This document shows, piece after piece, positions 1 through 45,154 of a stretch of DNA of 45,882 nt. The stretch lies in assembly GCA_913062955.1 (NCBI GenBank), contig CAJXZP010000003.1, forward strand, positions 1 through 45,882, written 5' to 3'. Each line of letters starts with the position of its first letter. Position 1 is the stretch's first letter. Made by a program: the position numbers and the translations under genes. The notes under the pieces were generated by a model, which saw only the letters and a program-made list of their open reading frames with translations, was not told the origin of the DNA and did no database searches. The stretch comes from an uncultured Flavobacteriales bacterium (lineage in GTDB: Bacteria; Bacteroidota; Bacteroidia; Flavobacteriales_G; Salibacteraceae).

Positions 1-149
1 GAATTGCGGTCGCTTTTGCGACCAGAGCATGGTAAGTGTTTGAACCACGATCTCTTGAGAACCACCTTCCAAAAAGTGTCTTTTTTTTGATTCTTTTTTT
101 GGTCATACAAAAAAAGAATATCAGAAAAAGTGCTGCAATTAAGCTCTCC
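1..149. repeat. Intergenic repeat R1, copy 1 (5' part cut by window start)
   Basis: This stretch matches 294-442 with only a few substitutions, at a constant offset of 293. It begins inside the apical stem of the hairpin that is complete in copy 2: GGTCGC, a TTTT loop, then GCGACC. The rest holds two long T tracts and an A tract. I see no gene in it. The family is probably dispersed in the genome, which is an inference from two copies in 450 bases. Confidence 0.85.
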
Positions 150-7314: not shown

Positions 7315-7485
7315 ACTAGGGCTACGGTAGGTAGCTAATGGCCAATAGCTGCTACCTCTCCAACCACCTTACCCTACCAAAGCACAGATTAACCTATTTT
7401 AGTTTTCCAATCCGCTTTACCGGTTAGAAAACTTTTATAACAACCGTATCATCAATCAGAAACATGAATTTAGCTAACTAATTTC
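7315..7485 (+). repeat. Dispersed repeat R2, copy 2
   Basis: The second copy of the repeat seen at 1485-1645, in the same orientation. It starts at ACTAGG immediately after a short RYCNNNN array and ends at the shared AACATGAATTTAGCTAACTA. The conserved core includes CCAAAGCACAGATTAACCTA and the TAACC/GGTTA inverted pair. A small insertion near 7340 distinguishes it from copy 1. Confidence 0.8.
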
Positions 7486-7927: not shown

Positions 7928-9040
7928 ATGAAAAATTTTAGTATCCTATTTTTTTTGATGATTTGCATCCAAGGTAATTCTCAATCTCCCGATAATTTTA
8001 GAACCGTTAATCCTGTTAATTTTGAAAGTGTTAGAAGCCTAAATGAAATTAATGATGACAATCTGGCGGATGCCTATCCTTGGATTAGTTCAGATGGCTT
8101 ACGTATTTATTATACAAAAGAGTATAGTGATGGGCAAGAGTTAGTTTTTACCGAACGAGAAAATTATGATTCTGATTTTAGTGCTCCTGTTATCGTTCCA
8201 ACAGGAAATATAAGGCCTACTTCGTGTTGGTTGTCAGCAAATGAGCTAACGGCATATGTAACCGAAATTAATCACCTGTATTTTTTGAAACGTTCCAGTC
8301 GTAACTCAGACTTTGAACCGCCAGTAGAAATACATTTGGATGGCGCTCCTAGTTACACCTTCCTTACTAGGGCTTCTCTTGATTTATCTCAAAATGAGTT
8401 ATTTATTAGCATCGATGCAGTGGGCATGAAACGTTTAAACATGGCCCAATTTAAACGGACTTCTGAAAGTTCTTTTTCATTTGAAAAATATATTTATCTA
8501 CCATTTGATTTTATTCCAGTTTTGGGGCAATTATCAAAAGATGGACGTAGCCTGTGTATCTCTGTAGAGAATAATGATGAGCCTGCAAAATTTTATAAAT
8601 TGTCTAGAACCAGTGCAACAGAAAATTTTGATTTAAAGTCATTTCAAGAATTGAAAGGCTTGAATAGCTTGGGTGGACTTATGAGTCAACCATCTACCTC
8701 AAATAATATGGAGTGGGTAGTTGGAGTCCGAAATTCAGGAGGGTACTGGGAAAACAATGATTTATTTATTGCTCATAAAGAATTTTCTATCGATTTTTAT
8801 GAACACCAGCAGCCGTTAAATGGGATGGTGTATCCAAACCCTACTACCGGTAGAATTACAATAGTATGTGGCGCTTCTGATGTTAACGTGGAGATTTTCA
8901 GTGTTATGGGACTGCAAATAGATCGTTTTATTTCTTCCTCGGCACGGGTTAATTATCAAATAGAGGAGGAGGGAGTGTATATAATACGCATGTTCACGGA
9001 GCATGGGGTTCAAAGTCAAAAGCTTATAGTGAGTCATTAA
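7928..9040 (+). CDS. T9SS type A substrate with WD40-like (PD40) propeller
   Basis: 370 residues. Signal peptide at the N-terminus (cleavage near GNSQS). Residues about 45-285 look like PD40/TolB-type propeller blades (AYPWISSDGLRIYYT, SQNELFISIDAVGMK, LSKDGRSLCISVENN). The last ~75 residues are a type A T9SS sorting domain: YPNPTTGRITI, then the 'EIFSVMGLQ' strand, GVYIIRMFTEHG and a basic Q-K-L-I-V end. The protein is predicted to cross the outer membrane by T9SS and be attached to the surface or released. No catalytic residues are recognised. A strong stem-loop follows the stop codon. Confidence 0.85.
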   Translation: MKNFSILFFLMICIQGNSQSPDNFRTVNPVNFESVRSLNEINDDNLADAYPWISSDGLRIYYTKEYSDGQELVFTERENYDSDFSAPVIVPTGNIRPTSCWLSANELTAYVTEINHLYFLKRSSRNSDFEPPVEIHLDGAPSYTFLTRASLDLSQNELFISIDAVGMKRLNMAQFKRTSESSFSFEKYIYLPFDFIPVLGQLSKDGRSLCISVENNDEPAKFYKLSRTSATENFDLKSFQELKGLNSLGGLMSQPSTSNNMEWVVGVRNSGGYWENNDLFIAHKEFSIDFYEHQQPLNGMVYPNPTTGRITIVCGASDVNVEIFSVMGLQIDRFISSSARVNYQIEEEGVYIIRMFTEHGVQSQKLIVSH

Positions 9041-15880: not shown

Positions 15881-16281
15881 AAATAAGAGCTGTAATCTCA
15901 ACTTAGCAATAGGTGAAGCCCATAGTTTTTAATCTTTGTTGGATACTACGTGTCTGGTCGGGAATACTTTAGTCTTTCGACTATTACATGCCTTCCTAAA
16001 AATTGCAGATTGAGCATTTTAGCTTTTCAAGCTGTGTAGCAGCTTAGAAAAACTTAATGGCAATCAAGTACCAAATATGTTGCATTGTAGTTGGCCCAAG
16101 TTCCATCATCCCAAGTTGCAACCTCAACTTAGGCAATAAGCAAAAGCTTTAACTCTCTATTGAATAATAAGGGTCCGGTCCAGAAAAAGTTGGCCTAAGC
16201 CTAAGCCTTAGCCTAGAGCCTTGGCCTATTTTAGAGTGGGAGCCCAAGTTCTTTCACCTTCGGACTCCCAACTCCAATTTT
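15881..16281. other. Intergenic region with two copies of repeat R4
   Basis: No gene seen. It holds a diverged partial copy of R4 (about 15896-15962), then GAGCATTTTAGCTTTTCAA, a phrase also seen near 14000, and then a fuller R4 copy at 16130-16254 with a hexad run of GCCTAA/GCCTTA units. Confidence 0.6.
16130..16254 (+). repeat. Dispersed repeat R4, copy A
   Basis: It shares with 17723-17831 and 23811-23932 the order CAATAAGC..., TTGAATAATAA, GTCCAGAA, a GCCTAAGCC-type hexad run, GCCTTGGC and TATTTTAGAGTGGGAGCCCA followed by AGTTCTTTC. This copy has a longer hexad run than the others. Confidence 0.75.
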
Positions 16282-17496
16282 TTATAATTTTGTTACTTTT
16301 TCCTCTATGATTTGGCCCGAATAGGTTTCTATTTTTAATAAATACATTCCACGGTTAAGAAAAGACAAGTCGATTTCCTGGTTTTTAAAGTTCACCGATG
16401 AATACACCACGGTGCCTAGGATCGAGTAAATTTTCAATGTTTTGATATCTTCAGAAGAATCGATCATTAAGTTATTCTGAAATGGGTTTGGAAAAACTTT
16501 CACACGAGCGTTAAATAAGGGATCGCTTACTGAGGTAAAGAGATCGCCAAGTACCCAAAGGTCATCGGTCACATTCGTTTCAGTACCTCCAGTTTGCCCA
16601 GTGCCATAATAAACTTCTCCACCCAGAGCAAAAGAAATCGCATTTCTTCGGGGGGTACCCGGGAAACTTGTCAGGGGTTTCCATTCGTTGGTACTTGCCG
16701 TGTATTCCCAAACCTTGTCCGTATACACATGGTCTTGAAATTCACCCCCAAGGATATAGGCCTTGTTACCTAAAGTAACCACGGATACAAAGGACATCGA
16801 AGTAGAAGGGAAGCCCGTTAATAGTGTCCAAGAATCATTGGAAGGGTCATATTCGTGAAAATCCCAATGGAAAAAACCAGAACTCTCTCCGTAGCCCATG
16901 TAGCCTTTGCCTGCTTCTCCAAAAGCAATGGTTCCAGCTCTGACACCGCCAAGGTAATCACTCTTTTGGGTCCAGGTGTCTAAGGCAGGATCGTATTCCC
17001 AAAAATCTTTAAGATAGATCACATTACCGCCTACAAATTTAACACCTCCACCTATATAACCTTTCGAATTAATGGTCATAGCCGATGCATAAACCCTTCC
17101 CTCACCTGGGAAATTTGCGATGGTACTCCAAACCTTTGTATTCATATTGTAAGCCCAAAATTGGGTGCTTAAATTCCCGAATTGATTCGAACCAGTTCCG
17201 ACATAAGCAATACTATCTACAACAAATGAAATATGGGCGTATTTAGAGCCTCCCGGGAAATTAGGCTTTTGGGTCCAAGAATCGTCAACCGCATTGTATT
17301 GCCAGAAATCATTAATAACGGTATTCCCATATAAACCTCCTAATACAAAAGCAGAGCCTTGGCTGTTTGAGAACGATATAGATGCCATTCTAACTTTACT
17401 CCCTCCCCCTGGGATGCTTTGTTTGGGCGACCACACCTGGGCGATGGAGGAAAAGAATATTAAATTTAAAAAAGTGCAAAAAAGTAATTTTTTCAT
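16282..17496 (-). CDS. Kelch-repeat T9SS type A substrate
   Basis: 404 residues from the ATG at 17496; an upstream extension to 17553 precedes the signal peptide and is dropped. Signal peptide with cleavage near SSIAQ. About six Kelch blades follow, with the recurring pattern 'D-x-W-x-Y-[DN]-...-D-x-W-T' and 'FPGG/FPG': NDFWQYNAVDDSW, TQFWAYNMNTKVW, KDFWEYDPALDTW, FHEYDPSNDSW and DKVWEYTASTNEW. The C-terminus is a type A sorting domain (VKVFPNPFQNNLMI, LKIYSILGTVV, LNRGMYLLKIET, EEKVTKL). The protein is predicted to be a surface-attached beta-propeller. R4 repeats flank both ends. Confidence 0.88.
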   Translation of the reverse strand: MKKLLFCTFLNLIFFSSIAQVWSPKQSIPGGGSKVRMASISFSNSQGSAFVLGGLYGNTVINDFWQYNAVDDSWTQKPNFPGGSKYAHISFVVDSIAYVGTGSNQFGNLSTQFWAYNMNTKVWSTIANFPGEGRVYASAMTINSKGYIGGGVKFVGGNVIYLKDFWEYDPALDTWTQKSDYLGGVRAGTIAFGEAGKGYMGYGESSGFFHWDFHEYDPSNDSWTLLTGFPSTSMSFVSVVTLGNKAYILGGEFQDHVYTDKVWEYTASTNEWKPLTSFPGTPRRNAISFALGGEVYYGTGQTGGTETNVTDDLWVLGDLFTSVSDPLFNARVKVFPNPFQNNLMIDSSEDIKTLKIYSILGTVVYSSVNFKNQEIDLSFLNRGMYLLKIETYSGQIIEEKVTKL

Positions 17497-18002
17497 GTGT
17501 GTGATTTTAGTATGTGATTTTTTGTAGCTGCTTACTTTCCGTATTCCATTCAATGGTCTAATAAAAGAAACTCTTTTTGGACATCATTTTATCAAAATGA
17601 GAAAGCTGTGATAAGAATCTTTTTTTAGATTACGTAATAATTTAGGCGTCCGTTGGTATCGAAGTAGAAAAAAGACTGCTGTACTCAAAGTTTGTTCTTT
17701 ACTCTCCAGTTTCAACCGCTATTACGCAATAAGCCAAGGCTTTAATTATCCGTTGAATAATAATTGTCTAGTCCAGAACAGTTTTGCCTTAGCCCATGCC
17801 TTGGCGCATTTTAGAGTAGGAGTCCAAATTCTTTTATCCATCCTCTTTCGTCTTTCCTCCATCGTCCATCTTCTCCTTAATTTTATATTTTCACCAAAAT
17901 AAAATTTTGGTTAGATTCGTGCACTTCTGATGAGCGGCTTGTTCTGCCTACACGGAGCGGAGTTGAAGTATCTCAGATGAAATAGAATAGTAAGAAAAGA
18001 GA
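17497..18002. other. 506-bp divergent intergenic region with R4 and an AT-rich palindrome
   Basis: No gene seen. R4 copy B occupies about 17723-17831, followed by a short RYCNNNN-like array (17834-17873). Then ACCAAAA/TTTTGGT form a perfect 7-bp inverted repeat with a TAAAA loop (17893-17911), about 90 bases before the lectin gene, a possible operator. Confidence 0.6.
17723..17831 (+). repeat. Dispersed repeat R4, copy B, with long-range stem
   Basis: The best example of R4. GCCAAGGC (17733-17740) and GCCTTGGC (17798-17805) are exact reverse complements enclosing 57 bases, which themselves contain an imperfect AATTAT/ATAATAATT hairpin and the shared GTCCAGAACAGTTT. It ends with GCATTTTAGAGTAGGAGTCC, also in copy C. 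Confidence 0.8.
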
Positions 18003-23810: not shown

Positions 23811-23932
23811 GCAATAAGCCAAGGCCAAGGCTTTAATTATCTGTTGAATGATAATTGTCTTGTCCAGAACAGTTTGGCCTAAGCCCAAAGCCTATAAGCT
23901 TTGGCGCATTTTAGAGTAGGAGTCCAAGTTCT
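23811..23932 (+). repeat. Dispersed repeat R4, copy C
   Basis: Matches copy B closely: AATAAGCCAAGGC (here GCCAAGGCCAAGGC), TTTAATTATCTGTTGAATGA, TTGTCCAGAACAGTTT, hexad-like GGCCTAAGCC, then GGCGCATTTTAGAGTAGGAG. The terminal stem is partly degenerate (GCCAAGGC against GCTTTGGC). Confidence 0.8.
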
Positions 23933-23935
23933 TTC

Positions 23936-24025
23936 GTCTATTGTCTTTCATCCATCATCTATAATCTCATGCCAACAGCCGCAAGCCGACAGCCAAAGTC
24001 CATGATCCACCGTCTTTAGTCTATC
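23936..24025 (+). repeat. Degenerate heptanucleotide array (RYCNNNN x13)
   Basis: Units GTCTATT, GTCTTTC, ATCCATC, ATCTATA, ATCTCAT, GCCAACA, GCCGCAA, GCCGACA, GCCAAA (6 nt), GTCCATG, ATCCACC, GTCTTTA, GTCTATC. The third base is C throughout. The 6-nt GCCAAA followed by GTCC also occurs in the array at 1395. Confidence 0.85.
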
Positions 24026-36465: not shown

Positions 36466-36762
36466 GAATAAAGTGTCTTAGGTTAACCCTAGGAATTCCT
36501 CACTGGCGATTGGCTTCAACTATAAATTAATGTGTAGCATACCCCCATACCTTAAATACCTTGGTATTTATTTTTAGAAAATAAATTCAGTTAGGTAGTC
36601 CGGATGTATTTATACGGAAATTGAATTCATTAATGGGGCCTGATCTTTTGATTTCTGCTAGTAAATTATACAAGAAATTGGAAACGATAATTTATCCAAC
36701 GATAGAACAGGTTTATTATGTATTATTGGTTTCAAAATCACACAGGAATTAAATCAGTAAAA

Positions 36763-37611
36763 ATGATCAAAGTAACTAATGCCATAGGGTTTTTGGCAAT
36801 AATACTAGCAGTAAGCTGTGCCACTCCAGAAGAAAAAACGGTAGCAGACTCCCCCCAAGAAAAGGGGATAGAAGAGTCGCCAAAAGAGCTTTTGAAACAA
36901 GCCTATCAGCTTTTTAAAGAGGGGGATGATGAACAATCCATCCAATTAGCCAATCGGGTTTTAGAAATAGGTAGGGAAACCCAAAACGATACATTAATTG
37001 GTCGTGCGCTAACTTCTTTATGTCGCAATTCTCAGCGTAAACTAGATACTACTCGCCTGGCGGAGTTAAGTGTGGAATTACGTGATTTGGCCGTTTCATC
37101 GGGTAATGAACAATGGTTAATGTACATGGCGCATATGAATGCGGAGATGTGGCGACTTATTGGAGATATGGATCGGGCGGAAGAATTTTACAACGAAAGT
37201 ATGCGCATTAGTTCTGAAACAGGTGCAATGGGAATGTATACCATCGATCATTTTAACAAGTCGTTTGTATCCATAGCGAAAGGTGATTTTGAATCCGCAA
37301 ATGCATCAATTCAAAAGTATTACCAACTCAGAAAAGAAGATGATCCAGAATCGGAAGACGCTTACGGCTTGATTGCGTTGGCTTATTTATTAGAACAACA
37401 AAGTAATTACGTAGGAGCCCACGAAGTAGCGGTAGTAACGCGTAGATTGTTTGAAGAACAAAACCTGTTTCCAGAACCACCCGATGAGAAACCATTGTTA
37501 CTCGTGGAGCGAAAAGTAAAAGAAATGTTGGCCCCATCCATATTTGAAGAAATACGTGAAAATTCTGCCTCCGAATCGGTTTCCAGTCTGTTGGATAAAT
37601 ATTTGAAATAA
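36763..37611 (+). CDS. TPR-containing lipoprotein
   Basis: 282 residues from the ATG at 36763, which puts the lipobox LAVSC in the right place (Cys18 or so); a longer frame from 36718 would push the hydrophobic segment inward. After an acidic linker the chain is all-helical with TPR-like pairs (LLKQAYQLFKEGDDEQSIQLANRVLEIG, GDMDRAEEFYNESMRISSE, FESANASIQKYYQLRKED). No C-terminal HTH follows, unlike the tethered regulators with a similar solenoid. Its last 63 bases with the stop codon are repeated exactly at 39830-39894, beyond the next gene. Confidence 0.75.
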   Translation: MIKVTNAIGFLAIILAVSCATPEEKTVADSPQEKGIEESPKELLKQAYQLFKEGDDEQSIQLANRVLEIGRETQNDTLIGRALTSLCRNSQRKLDTTRLAELSVELRDLAVSSGNEQWLMYMAHMNAEMWRLIGDMDRAEEFYNESMRISSETGAMGMYTIDHFNKSFVSIAKGDFESANASIQKYYQLRKEDDPESEDAYGLIALAYLLEQQSNYVGAHEVAVVTRRLFEEQNLFPEPPDEKPLLLVERKVKEMLAPSIFEEIRENSASESVSSLLDKYLK

Positions 37612-37613
37612 AC
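37549..37613 (+). repeat. 65-bp perfect direct repeat R5, left copy (inside gene 3' end)
   Basis: This stretch covers the last 21 codons of the TPR lipoprotein gene including the stop. It is identical, base for base, to 39830-39894. The match ends abruptly on both sides. Confidence 0.97.
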
Positions 37614-37787
37614 CATAAGGAGGTGAACTTCCAGATTTTCATGCGCCTTTTGTCGTTAGATATCTGCCGTTTGTCTTTATCGTGTAAACGATAGAAAAAC
37701 TAAAGAAAAATCACAAAATATCCAATTGAATCCAAAAAGAACAACCGTATTAACTTCTATATTCGTAATACTAAAAGATACTACTTC

Positions 37788-39704
37788 ATGAAAAAAACAA
37801 TGATTTTGGGGGTGCTCATTTTAGGGCTAATCCTACTAGGTGTGAGCTGCAAGAAAGAGAAAGTGCCTGAAAGTTCTTTGACTTCAAATAAAAGCGTTTA
37901 CAAGGAATTAGAAATGGTATTGATAAATGGTCACCATATTGATTTTAAATCTTCCAATTACATTGCAAAAATGGGGAGTGAAGACATTAACTTATTAAAG
38001 GTTAATGATCAGTTGGTTTTTATTATTCCTGAACTAGGATTTGGAAACCATACATTAGAAGTAACAATAGAAGGAACAGATTTTAGTCTTGATTTGAAGG
38101 TCGATCCTAGCGAAACTGTTGCTGATCCAGAAGTTTATTTGGAGTTTATTAGTTCAACTGTTTTGTTGGGTGATTTGAAGGTGTCTGAAATACAGGTGTT
38201 AACATACGGAATGAGTGATACACTGGAAGAGAAGGCCAATAAAAATATTTTAGCAGGTTATTATTCCGAATACACAGCCGCTTATGTGGGAATGAATGGT
38301 CTGGAAAGAGCGTCATTAGCCAAATTTGTAAAGGCCAATGAGGATCTGTTTACATATGAAATGGACTTGACATCGCATGTCGATTCTTTTAATGTAAATA
38401 GGTTTGGAACGGCCAATGTGATACGGTTAAAAGATGCGGTACAAAATATTAGTTCATCCAAGGTGAAACTAGTTGCCTTAGTTGCCATAACAGCCCTAGC
38501 CATTGATGCATGTGTAACCGTACCTAGCCCTTGGACATGTGGTGCGGCAGCGCTTTCAGGCGCAGCCTTAGCGGGGAAAATATATCATCATAATAGTATG
38601 ATTAAAACCTATGTTGATAAGGTTTTTACTCCCGTGTCAATTGAACTGGATGGGATGAACCAAAGGAGTAATGGGATCTTATCTGGGCAGTTATATGCGT
38701 TGAGTGCAATGGTAGAACGTAGAACGTTTTACAATGCAGATATGGGAAGTAAGAATGTGGCTGTGAATGACTTGATCTTAGAGTTGAATGAAAGTGAAAC
38801 TACATGGGCTAAAATAATGTCTATACTACCCATAAGTTTACAAGGAACGTCTGCTCATATAAAAAATACGTACTCCTTCAAAGCGCAATTTATGATGGAA
38901 AAAGGAACGTATTTAAGTATTGGCAATATAAGTAATTCAAAAATTAGTCTAGCTACTCAAAATCAAGTAGATAACGAGCTGCAAGTGACGTTTACGACCA
39001 ACGAGATCACGGATCAATATTTCTCTTTTGATTTATTGTATGACGATGGTGAATTTCAGTTTGCTAAAACCATAAATAAAACCCTAGAAGTACCGGTAAA
39101 TTGTACTTCATCGTTTATTGACACCAGAGATGGTGAAGAATATTGTAAGGTGATCATTGGGAGTCAAACTTGGATGGCAGAAAATCTTCGATTTAATGCC
39201 TATGGTTCTGTTGTAAATCCCAATAATCCAACTTCTAGATATGGACGTTTATACGATTTCCCAACTGTAATGAACGGTGAAACTACAAGTAATACCATTC
39301 CAAGTGGCGTACAAGGTATTTGCCCAAATGGCTGGCATTTACCATCGGATGATGAATGGAAAATTTTGGAGATGAGTTTAGGTATGAGTCAGGTGGATGC
39401 AGATGATTATGGCGGGAATCGGGGAACCAATCAAGGTGTACAAATGAAGTCTGCCACAGGATGGAATAACAATGGAAATGGGACGAATAGTAGTGGGTTT
39501 AATGCTTTACCCGCTGGGGCATTCAATTCATTGGCGAGCCATCAATTCAGACATCTTGGGGAAAGAACCGTTTTTTGGTCTTCCACCAAATACAATATGA
39601 TACCAGGTATTTGTTACCGTTTTTTTCAAGATGTTGAGTTGACATCCAGTCGTTATTTTACACAGACCTACCCGGGCCAATCATGTCGTTGTGTGCAAGA
39701 CTAG
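37788..39704 (+). CDS. FISUMP-domain lipoprotein
   Basis: 638 residues. The lipobox LLGVSC gives lipidated Cys21, followed by KKEK. Residues about 25-110 look like an IPT/Ig-type strand domain; about 125-290 are mostly helical with a hydrophobic Gly/Ala-rich stretch (about 229-262) that might be membrane-active. The C-terminal ~200 residues are a FISUMP domain (TIGR02145-like): DTRDGEEYCKVIIGSQTWMAENL, YGRLYDFPTVM, GICPNGWHLPSDDEWKILE, and FWSSTKYN. Such domains are extracellular with unknown ligands. The gene is the only one between the two 65-bp repeats. Confidence 0.85.
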   Translation: MKKTMILGVLILGLILLGVSCKKEKVPESSLTSNKSVYKELEMVLINGHHIDFKSSNYIAKMGSEDINLLKVNDQLVFIIPELGFGNHTLEVTIEGTDFSLDLKVDPSETVADPEVYLEFISSTVLLGDLKVSEIQVLTYGMSDTLEEKANKNILAGYYSEYTAAYVGMNGLERASLAKFVKANEDLFTYEMDLTSHVDSFNVNRFGTANVIRLKDAVQNISSSKVKLVALVAITALAIDACVTVPSPWTCGAAALSGAALAGKIYHHNSMIKTYVDKVFTPVSIELDGMNQRSNGILSGQLYALSAMVERRTFYNADMGSKNVAVNDLILELNESETTWAKIMSILPISLQGTSAHIKNTYSFKAQFMMEKGTYLSIGNISNSKISLATQNQVDNELQVTFTTNEITDQYFSFDLLYDDGEFQFAKTINKTLEVPVNCTSSFIDTRDGEEYCKVIIGSQTWMAENLRFNAYGSVVNPNNPTSRYGRLYDFPTVMNGETTSNTIPSGVQGICPNGWHLPSDDEWKILEMSLGMSQVDADDYGGNRGTNQGVQMKSATGWNNNGNGTNSSGFNALPAGAFNSLASHQFRHLGERTVFWSSTKYNMIPGICYRFFQDVELTSSRYFTQTYPGQSCRCVQD

Positions 39705-39771
39705 AAATTAGTTTTGTGCCATGGTGTATTAAGAGAAAATAATCCATCTTTCTTGAAACCCGTTAGTTATA

Positions 39772-39800
39772 TATTAACCAGATTAAAGGTTAATAGTTTT
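39772..39800 (+). terminator. Probable terminator of the FISUMP gene
   Basis: TATTAACC (39772-39779) and GGTTAATA (39788-39795) are exact reverse complements around an 8-nt loop, followed by GTTTT. It lies within the segment bounded by the 65-bp repeats. Confidence 0.5.
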
Positions 39801-39829
39801 GGGTTAAGTTGGACGGATCGTTGTTCGTG

Positions 39830-39894
39830 GAAATACGTGAAAATTCTGCCTCCGAATCGGTTTCCAGTCTGTTGGATAAATATTTGAAATAAAC
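39830..39894 (+). repeat. 65-bp perfect direct repeat R5, right copy (gene-tail relic)
   Basis: An exact copy of 37549-37613, including a TAA in the original frame, but with no gene body in front of it. The 2216 bases between the copies (37614-39829) hold just the FISUMP gene and its terminator. Confidence 0.97.
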
Positions 39895-40141
39895 GGATAG
39901 GGAAGTAAAATCTCCCGTTTGCCCATCAGCGAAATGAAATTTCAGGTTGAAAAATGAGGGAGAACATGTATTTAAAGAATGTATAGTTTAAAATATTGAA
40001 TCTGAGATTAAAAAAAACGGACCTGAAAATGTTTAAAATTGAATAGCGTAAAAAGAATTTATTTTCCGGATACTTAGCTGGTTTACAATACGGTATAGCC
40101 AGAGGACCATACAGATGCAGAGACTAGGATGTTATTTAAAA
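39895..40141. other. Intergenic region before the PKD adhesin
   Basis: Together with 39705-39894 this makes a 437-base gap. After the 65-bp repeat, a weak GGGA/TCCC hairpin and a GAAAT/ATTTC hairpin are visible. I see no clear promoter box before the adhesin gene. Confidence 0.5.
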
Positions 40142-43100
40142 ATGAGGGGGGTAAGGTTTGTTGCGGCACTCGTATTTATTTTATTTTCTGTTTCATCCCA
40201 AGCCCAATGTTTTCAAGCTTTTGATGGTTTGGGTGTTTTGCAGAATACGCCTTATTATATTGGATGTAGTGGAGGTGATTACGCCATTTTTGTTCAAACA
40301 GATCTAGCCCTTGGAAATTATACCATTGTGTGGGGAGATGGTACGGCAAATGCTACCGGAGCCTCGTTAACTCCACCTACTTACGTTCAACATACCTATT
40401 CGGCCACCGTAGATACCTTCAATATTACCATTACGGATAACTCCAATGGATGCGTAATCAATGGAGTGGTGGTGATGGAAGAAGCCGTAAATGCCTCTAT
40501 TCAAATACCTGTTGGGGGCGTTACCGTGGTATGCGCCCCATCTCCGATTACATTTATCAATTCGACCACCAATGTTTCTGCCACTACAATTTTTACGTGG
40601 GATTTTGGGGATGGTACCCCTCCGGCTATTTTTAACTCTACTAATGCAGGGTTACCTGTCATTCATGCCTACCAGCGTAATGCGGTAAGTTGTGAAACCG
40701 TAGTTACGCTAACAGCTGAAAATTATTGTAGTTTCGGTAATCCCACCGCAGCCAATTTTTCGCCATTAATGGTATTCGATTTAGATACTGCGGTTATTAA
40801 TGCAAGTGCGAATACCCTCTGTTATCCCGATACCGTAGTGACTTTTGATAATGCAACCATCAAAAACTGTTTGCCTCAAGGAAATGTACAACAACGATAC
40901 GAATACTGGAATTTAGGGGATTACTGGGGTTTAGGATATGATTCCATTATTCCTTGGATTCCCTTTGACCCACCTGCGCAACCTGGACATGCTATTGCCT
41001 TTCCTGGAATTGGTAGCTATACCATCATGATGATTGATAGCAATATGTGTGGACGAGATACTGCTTATAGCACCGTAAATATTATTCCTCCTCCAACTGC
41101 CGGGTTAAATTTGGCCTTTGATTCGGCTTGTGTCGGAGAATTGATAACGATAACCAATAATTCAGGTTCAGGAGCAAATATATATTATTGGGATTTTGGA
41201 GATGGAAATGGGTATAACCAATATGCGGGAAATCCAACTTTTACTTTTCAGGATACAGGCGTAAATTCCATTTCGGTAATTGCAGGAATAAGCGGGACAT
41301 TTGGGGTTTGCCAAGATACAAATCAAACCAATATTTATATTAAATCTTCCCCCGTTGCTTCTTTTGGGTTAGATACGGATCAAGCCTGCGACTCATTAGC
41401 CGTAACCATATCCGATTCCACTTCGGGTGCAGTGGCATGGTCATGGAATTTGGGAAATGGAAATACCTCCGTGGTGGCTAATCCACCCGTTCAATACTAT
41501 AATTCACCGGGTTCTTATTCTATCCTTTTGGATGTCACCCATGCGAATGGCTGTACCGATACCGAAACCAATGTGGTAAATGTATATCCAACGCCAACGG
41601 CAAATTTTATGGCGAATAGTGTTTGTCAAAATGCAGTGGCTTCGTTTACAGATATTTCAGGTTCTCCCGCATCCGACCCTATTAGTTCATGGACCTGGGA
41701 TTTTGGAGATGGAAATTCATATATCGGGCAACATGGTAGCCATATTTATCCAAATGTGGGCGGATTTGCCGTGACATTAATTGTGGCTACTCCCCATTGT
41801 TCAGATACTATTGTTGATTCCGTTTCGGTGGAAACTAAACCAACGGCCATTTTCACGGTTAACGATACCATCGGGTGTAGCCCATTGCTAGTATCCACTA
41901 CAAATTCATCCATTGGGGCTACCAGCTATTCTTGGGATTTTGGGAATGGGTATGGATCCAATCAGATGAATAGTACTTTGTCTTATCTAAATTCAGATAC
42001 GGTGGATACCAATTATACTTTAACTTTAGTAGCCTCCACCACCTTTGGTTGCTTGGATACAGTCACCCTACCTATAACCGTTTATGGAGGTCCAAATTCT
42101 AGTTTTACTAGTAATTCCATTCCCGAATGTGGTCCCGTTGCAGTCCATTTTCAAAATACGTCAACGGGAACAGTCAGTTATTTGTGGGATTTTGGCGATT
42201 CAACCACCACCAGTAATTTAGAAGATCCATCGCATATTTTTGGAAATACAACTTTATTCATTAGCCATTATACCGTAAGTCTAATCGCGACCAATGCAAA
42301 TGGTTGTACAGATACCTCCACACAAGTCATTACCATTTATCCAGAACCTGTTTTTCCATTTTCTACTATTCCGGATTCCGGATGCTCCCCTTTAAAGGTG
42401 ACATTTCCTGCAATAGTTGGGGCGGTTTCTTACGCTTGGGACTTTGGTGATGGTACCACCGCAACAGGGCAATCTCCAACGCATGTTTTTATTAATAATA
42501 CCACCAATAATCAGTTTTTTAATGTGCAGTTAATTGCCGCTTCTCCGTTTGGTTGTTCCGATACAACTATAGAAATTGTAACGGTTTTTCCGGAACCAAC
42601 TTCTGCTTTTTCGGTAAACGACTCCATCGGTTGTGGGCCACTTTCCATAACCATCACCAATAACTCGTTAAATGCAAATTCCTATTTCTGGGATTTTGGG
42701 GATGGGGATACCTCATTAACTAATGCAGGGATTTTAACGCATACCTTTCAAAATATCACTCCCGGACAAGCTATTTATTCGACTCAATTGATAGCCATGA
42801 CCCCAAATGGTTGCTCTGATACCATAACACACAATATCACCGTGCATGAACCGGTTTCCGCTGGATTTATTACTAATACGGCAGGGTGTTCACCCTTAGC
42901 AGCCACTTTTATCAATACCACCCAAGGGGCATCCACCTATTTGTGGAATTTTGGTGATGGTAGTATTTCTTCTTCTGCAAATCCAGCACATTCATTTTTT
43001 AGCGGATCAGTTACCGATACAATTTATCAGGTAACTTTAATCGCATCCTCTTCTTTTGGATGTGCAGATACCTTGATAGATTCTGTTTCTGTGTATCACA

Positions 43101-45154
43101 ATGCAGTTGCCTCCGTGAGTACGAGTGCCCTTTCAGGGTGTACTCCTGTTAATATTATGTTGACCAATAACAGTTTTGGATACGATAATGTATTTCTGGA
43201 TTATGGAGATGGAAATTTTTTAAATACCGGATTTTCAAATAGCCTCCATACGTATATTAATAATTCGGTTAATCCTCAAAATAATGTAGTGGAGCTTATT
43301 GCCACTACCCAATATGGATGTAACGATACCACTCTTCAAAACATTACTATTCACCCATCGGTTCAAGCGAGTTTTAGTGGGGATCCAGATGGGTGTAGCC
43401 CCTTAGTCAATAATTTTCAAAATACAAGCTCGGGGAGTACCAGTTATCAATGGGATTTTGGCAATGGAAATCAGTCGAATTTAATAAATCCATCCGAAAA
43501 TTTTATAGCTGTAGGAACCACTCAGAACTACACGGTATCCCTATTAGCTACCTCTAGTTATGGATGTACGGATTCGGTGCTATTAAATGTAACCGTTCAT
43601 CCATCGGCAGTGGCCTCTTTTACCTCCAATTCCAATTCGGGATGTACCCCTTTAAGCGTGGGATTTACCAATGCGAGTTTCGATTTTGATAATTTGTTTT
43701 GGGACTTTGGAGATGGTCTTTTTTCCACCGATACCTTCTCCTTGATTCATCATACTTTTGTGAATAGCACTTCTAATTCCCTGTTTTATGAGGTAGAATT
43801 AATAACAAGTACCATTCATGGATGTAATGACACTTCCGCAATTCAAATAGAAGTATATCCTCCTATTTCGGCCTCTGCCGATATGGATTCCATTGGCTGT
43901 AGTCCGTTTTTTGTTTCCTATCAAAACAATAGTACGGGTGCCAACGGGTATCTATGGGATTTGGGGAACGGTATTATTAGCACCAATCCAACCCCAAATG
44001 AAACCTATTTGAATAATGGGAATTCGGTTATTACAGTACCCGTGGAGTTAACCGCTACCTCTGCATTTGGATGTACCGATGTGTTTTCTAGAAATATAAC
44101 CATCTATCCAAAACCCATTGCGAGTTTTGTGGCTACCCCAATGGTACAGTCTTTTCCTCTTACAGTAGTGAATATTACCAATACCACTTCGGGTACTTGG
44201 GACTATAATTGGAGCTTTGGGAATAACTCGTTTTCGTCCGTACAAAACCCTCCCGTTATTGATTACATTAATATAGGTGATTATACCATTCAGCTAATAA
44301 TCTCCAATTCGTATTGTGCGGATACCGTATCACACCTAGTTCAAATTTTACCGCCCCCTCCCATATCCAGTTTTAGTGGTTCACAAGCAGGGTGTTCTCC
44401 TGTTTCTGTTGCTTTTGTAAACGAATCGGAATACGGAACCGATTATTTATGGGATTTTGGCGATGGGAACACCTCCGTACAACAAGATCCCGTATATACC
44501 TATTTTTTTCCAGGAGTATATTCGGTAACACTTACCGTAAATGGAATCAGTGGAACCGATACTAAAATAATATCCAATGCGGTGGAGGTTTACCCTAATG
44601 CCATTGCTAATTTTGATTACCAACCCATAAAAGTTTCTTCCACAGGTGATAAAACCTTTTTTTATAACCAGTCGGCTAATGCCACTCTTTTTGATTGGAG
44701 TTTTGGAGATGGAAATTACTCGAACGATGAGAATCCAATTTACCAATATTCCGAAGTAGGAGATTATCCTATTACTTTGATTGCAAATAACGAATTTAAC
44801 TGTCCAGATACCCTAACCCACTTTACTTACATTAAGGTAGAAGCCTCCGGAGAATTAACGTTTCCGAATGCATTTGTACCTAGTTCGGGCGGACCAACTG
44901 GAGGAATGTACGAACAGGGAGTGGTAGATAATAGTATTTTCCATCCCATCTCTCATGGGGTAGATACCTACCATTTAGTCATTTTTAATCGTTGGGGAGA
45001 GTTGGTTTTTGAAACCTTTGATGTCAACCAAGGTTGGGATGGATATTACCGAGGTGAATTATCTGCTCAGGATGTATATGCATGGAAAGTAGACGTGATA
45101 TTGGTCAGTGGTGAGGAGAAAATGTTCACTGGAGATTTAACGCTTCTCAGATAA
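40142..45154 (+). CDS. Giant PKD-repeat adhesin with T9SS type B sorting domain
   Basis: 1670 residues from the ATG at 40142 (another Met is at 40115). Signal peptide with cleavage near SSQAQ. About 18 PKD-like modules of 75-90 residues follow, counted by the motif WDFGDG or its variants (TIVWGDG, YYWDFGDG, YSWDFGNG, VFLDYGDG, YNWSFGNN, YLWDFGDG, FDWSFGDG). Most modules begin 'GCSPL' and end '(F/Y)GC.DT', a Cys pair that probably forms a disulfide. The C-terminal ~95 residues are a type B (CHU_C, gliding-motility-associated) sorting domain (LTFPNAFVPSS, HLVIFNRWGELVFET, GWDGYYRGELSAQDVYAWKV). Predicted to be secreted and surface-attached as a long flexible adhesin. It overlaps the PorP/SprF gene by one base (TAATG). 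Confidence 0.93.
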   Translation: MRGVRFVAALVFILFSVSSQAQCFQAFDGLGVLQNTPYYIGCSGGDYAIFVQTDLALGNYTIVWGDGTANATGASLTPPTYVQHTYSATVDTFNITITDNSNGCVINGVVVMEEAVNASIQIPVGGVTVVCAPSPITFINSTTNVSATTIFTWDFGDGTPPAIFNSTNAGLPVIHAYQRNAVSCETVVTLTAENYCSFGNPTAANFSPLMVFDLDTAVINASANTLCYPDTVVTFDNATIKNCLPQGNVQQRYEYWNLGDYWGLGYDSIIPWIPFDPPAQPGHAIAFPGIGSYTIMMIDSNMCGRDTAYSTVNIIPPPTAGLNLAFDSACVGELITITNNSGSGANIYYWDFGDGNGYNQYAGNPTFTFQDTGVNSISVIAGISGTFGVCQDTNQTNIYIKSSPVASFGLDTDQACDSLAVTISDSTSGAVAWSWNLGNGNTSVVANPPVQYYNSPGSYSILLDVTHANGCTDTETNVVNVYPTPTANFMANSVCQNAVASFTDISGSPASDPISSWTWDFGDGNSYIGQHGSHIYPNVGGFAVTLIVATPHCSDTIVDSVSVETKPTAIFTVNDTIGCSPLLVSTTNSSIGATSYSWDFGNGYGSNQMNSTLSYLNSDTVDTNYTLTLVASTTFGCLDTVTLPITVYGGPNSSFTSNSIPECGPVAVHFQNTSTGTVSYLWDFGDSTTTSNLEDPSHIFGNTTLFISHYTVSLIATNANGCTDTSTQVITIYPEPVFPFSTIPDSGCSPLKVTFPAIVGAVSYAWDFGDGTTATGQSPTHVFINNTTNNQFFNVQLIAASPFGCSDTTIEIVTVFPEPTSAFSVNDSIGCGPLSITITNNSLNANSYFWDFGDGDTSLTNAGILTHTFQNITPGQAIYSTQLIAMTPNGCSDTITHNITVHEPVSAGFITNTAGCSPLAATFINTTQGASTYLWNFGDGSISSSANPAHSFFSGSVTDTIYQVTLIASSSFGCADTLIDSVSVYHNAVASVSTSALSGCTPVNIMLTNNSFGYDNVFLDYGDGNFLNTGFSNSLHTYINNSVNPQNNVVELIATTQYGCNDTTLQNITIHPSVQASFSGDPDGCSPLVNNFQNTSSGSTSYQWDFGNGNQSNLINPSENFIAVGTTQNYTVSLLATSSYGCTDSVLLNVTVHPSAVASFTSNSNSGCTPLSVGFTNASFDFDNLFWDFGDGLFSTDTFSLIHHTFVNSTSNSLFYEVELITSTIHGCNDTSAIQIEVYPPISASADMDSIGCSPFFVSYQNNSTGANGYLWDLGNGIISTNPTPNETYLNNGNSVITVPVELTATSAFGCTDVFSRNITIYPKPIASFVATPMVQSFPLTVVNITNTTSGTWDYNWSFGNNSFSSVQNPPVIDYINIGDYTIQLIISNSYCADTVSHLVQILPPPPISSFSGSQAGCSPVSVAFVNESEYGTDYLWDFGDGNTSVQQDPVYTYFFPGVYSVTLTVNGISGTDTKIISNAVEVYPNAIANFDYQPIKVSSTGDKTFFYNQSANATLFDWSFGDGNYSNDENPIYQYSEVGDYPITLIANNEFNCPDTLTHFTYIKVEASGELTFPNAFVPSSGGPTGGMYEQGVVDNSIFHPISHGVDTYHLVIFNRWGELVFETFDVNQGWDGYYRGELSAQDVYAWKVDVILVSGEEKMFTGDLTLLR

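Follow-up and report, generated by a model that had tools for sequence, protein, structure and literature searches.

How does a single lipoprotein gene come to stand between the end of its upstream neighbor and an exact second copy of that end? The locus that raises this question lies in a 45,882-nucleotide stretch of DNA from an uncultured Flavobacteriales bacterium of the Salibacteraceae (contig CAJXZP010000003.1; hereafter the window), where a gene for a TPR lipoprotein is followed by one for a FISUMP lipoprotein and then by one for a PKD/CHU_C secreted protein. An earlier note on this DNA had offered two explanations: a cassette, possibly a non-autonomous element, that inserted into the TPR gene end while rebuilding it, or recombination between paralogous loci.

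The duplicated TPR gene end

Positions 37549-37613 and 39830-39894 of the window are identical on the same strand at 65 of 65 bases, which is the full extent of the exact match, confirming the earlier note's report of a perfect duplication of the TPR 3′ end 2281 bases downstream. The intervening DNA is 2216 bases long. Because the base composition of the window predicts only ∼5e-29 exact 65-mer pairs, the repeat is not a product of chance. Copy 1 (37549..37613, +) is made up of the terminal 63 bases of the TPR lipoprotein gene (36718..37611, +), including the stop codon, followed by AC. Copy 2 (39830..39894, +) lies outside any long gene, and to its left the TPR reading frame runs on for some codons, reading LDGSLFV in place of the LAPSIFE of the TPR gene. 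The direct repeats enclose the FISUMP segment, with one of them restoring the end of the TPR gene.

In the whole of the bacterium's own genome (3.91 Mb in 131 contigs), the 65-mer is present at these two places only; it is not, as the earlier note had considered, a widespread intergenic repeat unrelated to the TPR gene. A structured RNA was likewise rejected, since Rfam and tRNA matches are absent and the RNA around either copy folds no better than shuffled sequences. The initial 31 bases of the 65-mer gave no match when searched for in viral contigs. Among exact repeats in the 487 kb of this genome that were surveyed, the 65-base repeat ranks second by length. The longest, of 77 bases, is located at a terminus of this contig, within a 149-base direct repeat (window positions 1-149 and 294-442, 97% alike) at the contig's very start that may be an assembly-end effect. 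Other repeats in the window include one of ∼120 bases (1522-1641 and 7360-7480, 92-100% alike) upstream of the different genes at 1706 and 7928, which may have a promoter region in common, and an intergenic family found at four places, 61-92% alike (15919-16282, 17733-17862 and 23824-23962). Further along the contig, a spacer at positions 8081-8343 of locus L045 (contig C3, 53880-54142) holds two exact repeats of 42-44 bases, each occurring again after 176 bases and with a terminator-like hairpin included.

The only large gene between the two copies is the FISUMP gene (37788..39704, +), with spacers of 174 bases before it and 125 bases after it. It encodes a protein of 638 aa whose C-terminal part matches PF09603 in a profile search (residues 455-636, E 9e-32, 111 bits against a cut-off of 33.9), and residues 30-98 give a weak TIG-like match. 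The earlier note had described the intervening DNA as one FISUMP gene plus a terminator. The first part of this description holds, but the terminator is doubtful: the possible candidate 3′ of the gene is a weak AT-rich hairpin of 8 pairs (about 39772..39795, +) in a stretch with a fold z of −1.7, and a terminator consensus scan did not detect it. The GC content of the FISUMP gene is 0.38, like that of its neighbors, and therefore gives no sign of foreign origin. On the right-hand flank, the PKD/CHU_C gene (40115..45154, +) begins 220 bases after copy 2 and is followed by a PorP-like gene (45154-46155), named from its sequence rather than by profile search. About 1 kb past the PorP-like gene (L045, 1323-2135) is a gene for an OAA-family lectin with four sugar-binding repeats (PF17882).

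The TPR locus in related genomes

We compared the locus with the TPR loci of 15 relatives, two of them from genomes of the same genus (G001 and G002) and 13 from public genomes. Identity of the TPR protein to its counterparts in the two same-genus genomes is 71% and 67%, and the block to its left, comprising genes for a luciferase-like monooxygenase, DUF1853 and the TPR protein itself, is common to all three. What lies to the right of the TPR gene differs in each: this genome has FISUMP and PKD, G001 an exonuclease/UvrC-like region and G002 a photolyase, the latter two named from sequence. At the 13 loci from public genomes the neighbors are varied, and neither FISUMP nor PKD adjoins the TPR gene. 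The organisms named for these TPR relatives, together with the CHU_C, PorP-like and FISUMP genes, mark the genome as one of Bacteroidota type. Across all 15 loci, none has FISUMP beside the TPR gene or a comparable duplication of its tail, so that single-tailed TPR genes without FISUMP beside them exist in relatives, as distinct from the strains named in the earlier note, and the refuting case of that note, in which all related genomes carry both copies, was not found. At one locus (L036), a 29-base partial repeat directly follows the TPR gene. Because the relatives have neither feature, the FISUMP gene and the second tail copy look derived in this genome.

The right-hand neighbors are placed elsewhere in two relatives. 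In G001 and in G003, a genome of another genus, the PKD-PorP pair stands behind MauG-type genes, which places the 65-base repeat at a synteny breakpoint. Among the genomes compared, the join between the TPR block and the PKD block is, from the gene orders, specific to this genome, and FISUMP and copy 2 are situated at that join. The best MauG match in the bacterium's own genome, on contig C98, is directly followed by a second PorP-like gene without a PKD gene (L066, 5146-7438); in G001 and G003, PKD lies between the two. A MauG-PorP place such as this one may be where the PKD-PorP pair of the window originally stood. Since the pair is displaced relative to G001, more than one event is indicated.

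The FISUMP gene itself has no orthologue within the genus; G001 has a match at a different place, and it covers only the C-terminal domain. Relatives of its N-terminal part were found, at 23-24% identity, in 3 of the 395 genomes sampled from the class, a distribution that, judged from these genomes, is sporadic. No comparable repeat encloses the gene at these three loci, and none of the other FISUMP genes examined is enclosed by a tail duplication. Only one locus (L014) has long repeats, and these were rejected as enclosing tail repeats because they are internal repeats of a long open frame that encodes several FISUMP domains. Matches on plasmids and phages are likewise confined to the C-terminal domain, at ∼29-34% identity.

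Origin of the second tail

The sequence just beyond the repeat edges bears on the nature of the donor. When the residues to the left of copy 2 were compared with the TPR family, excluding the window's own gene, P was 0.004-0.005 over 7-8 residues and 0.016-0.07 over longer stretches. At the DNA level, anchored tests of the left edge gave P of 0.03-0.05, and an ungapped comparison over 22 bases, a length picked after seeing the match, gave P of 0.002. For the alignment at the right edge, P was 0.006 with random window DNA as the null and 0.016 with regions that follow other stop codons. Overall the flank similarity is weak, with P of about 0.004-0.05 per side that varies with the null and with a test length chosen post hoc. 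It suggests that a longer, diverged match between related TPR tails has the 65 bases as its identical core, and it is compatible, although not securely, with a donor that had a diverged TPR gene.

We favor, at a probability of roughly one half, a model in which one-sided or Campbell-like homologous recombination at the TPR 3′ end brought in a FISUMP-bearing segment and left a second TPR tail behind. RecA-type recombination, with the TPR tail as its anchor, would have joined the FISUMP-carrying DNA to that end, either with a circular or tandem intermediate entering by a single Campbell-like crossover or with homologous recombination at one end and illegitimate recombination at the other. The outcome would be a complete TPR end (copy 1), then FISUMP, then, at the join on the right, a piece of the tail (copy 2). 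Should the donor have had a diverged TPR tail, the 65 identical bases would represent the crossover or conversion tract. What the data show is the repeat, its uniqueness, its absence from the relatives and the synteny break; the mechanism, the donor and the order of events are what we infer here. In favor of the model are the exact and unique repeat, the 15 TPR loci that have neither a comparable duplication nor FISUMP beside TPR, the left block common to the same-genus genomes with different genes downstream, the sporadic N-terminal part of FISUMP and the flank similarity. The weakness of that similarity, the displaced PKD-PorP pair and the GC content of FISUMP count against it. A recent event or ongoing gene conversion is possible. 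Recombination between paralogous loci, as proposed in the earlier note, agrees with this model when understood as recombination between related TPR tails. Its other proposal fares less well: insertion at a gene end that is left intact fits the locus, as do the single-tailed relatives without FISUMP beside the TPR gene, but the mobile cassette is not supported.

The strongest competitor, clearly less probable than the recombination model, is that template switching or a small duplication placed a local copy of the 65 bases in the FISUMP-PKD spacer, independently of the arrival of FISUMP. The surveyed 487 kb contain other exact, local direct repeats (42-77 bases), so duplications of this short, local kind are not rare in this genome, and the flank similarity may be due to chance. 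However, most of those repeats are 20-460 bases apart and lie in or near spacers, whereas the 65-base pair is 2.3 kb apart, ends at the gene's stop codon and encloses a gene that is absent beside TPR in relatives. We consider it unlikely that the arrangement is instead a misassembly across an overlap of 65 bases. The draft genome is fragmented into 131 contigs, assemblers err at exact overlaps, and the TPR-FISUMP-PKD join is absent from all relatives compared; yet the contig that contains both copies is 117 kb long, their flanks are unique and different on all four sides, and a true repeat would likewise give an assembly path that runs through the two copies.

When an element integrates in the 3′ end of a gene and rebuilds that end, direct repeats remain, usually of 8-60 bases (PMC5704250), which invites a comparison with a decayed or non-autonomous CIME-like site-specific element, with the 65-mer as attL and attR and a tyrosine recombinase acting in trans. 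As in such IME/CIME elements, the gene end is kept here and a copy is found at the far end, and tyrosine integrase genes are present on other contigs of the genome. Unlike them, the segment has no integrase, core symmetry or other copies; a site-specific recombinase lies within or next to an IME and is lost from a CIME. The contig has no tyrosine integrase, and no recombinase family was found among the neighbors scanned, with FISUMP alone inside the repeats, in agreement with the earlier note that integrase and transposase are absent. The inverted-repeat core is missing as well, the best candidate of 7 of 11 pairs being the commonest value in random 65-mers. The earlier note had suggested a search of the genome for the cassette with other gene tails; no other copy of the cassette or of the 65-mer is present. 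These results, together with the other FISUMP genes that are free of tail repeats, speak against a non-autonomous element. We regard the CIME-like origin as improbable, and slightly more so the narrower proposal of a minimal one-gene element that entered the TPR 3′ end, rebuilt it and owed its mobility to a trans-acting recombinase from another part of the genome. A diversity-generating retroelement, with the two copies as TR and VR and the FISUMP-type domain as target, comes to mind because Fib_succ_major domains are found among DGR variable proteins (PMC4159848). It is refuted in practice and its probability is negligible: the reverse transcriptase domain RVT_1 (PF00078) is absent from the whole genome, the copies are identical at 65 of 65 bases with no adenine-biased differences, and the repeat belongs to the TPR gene rather than to FISUMP.

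Precedents and significance

Known analogues of the locus exist. Homology-facilitated illegitimate recombination has been described in Acinetobacter, Streptococcus pneumoniae and Pseudomonas stutzeri (reviewed in PMC3240628 and PMC2884548), where foreign DNA enters through homology on one side and illegitimate joining on the other without mobile-element genes, as proposed here; the present case differs in that a tail duplication remains and in that the event is deduced rather than observed. Direct repeats flank 10-18% of the short variable segments in E. coli, S. aureus and S. pyogenes (PMC2884548). These segments resemble ours in being enclosed by direct repeats and free of mobile genes, but their repeats are mostly <30 bases and the segments <500 bases, compared with 65 and 2216 bases here. 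In pneumococcal transformation, repeat-anchored alternative pairing produces duplications (PMC3784515). Together, these three sources provide precedents for the ingredients of the favored recombination account.

The locus is a clean case of how a single surface-protein gene may become spliced behind a conserved gene without mobile-element machinery. Its value is that of a single synteny breakpoint that has been mapped and whose scar can still be read, and otherwise it changes little. The case looks like ordinary genome plasticity, with the second TPR tail as the scar of ordinary recombination rather than the mark of a new kind of mobile element.
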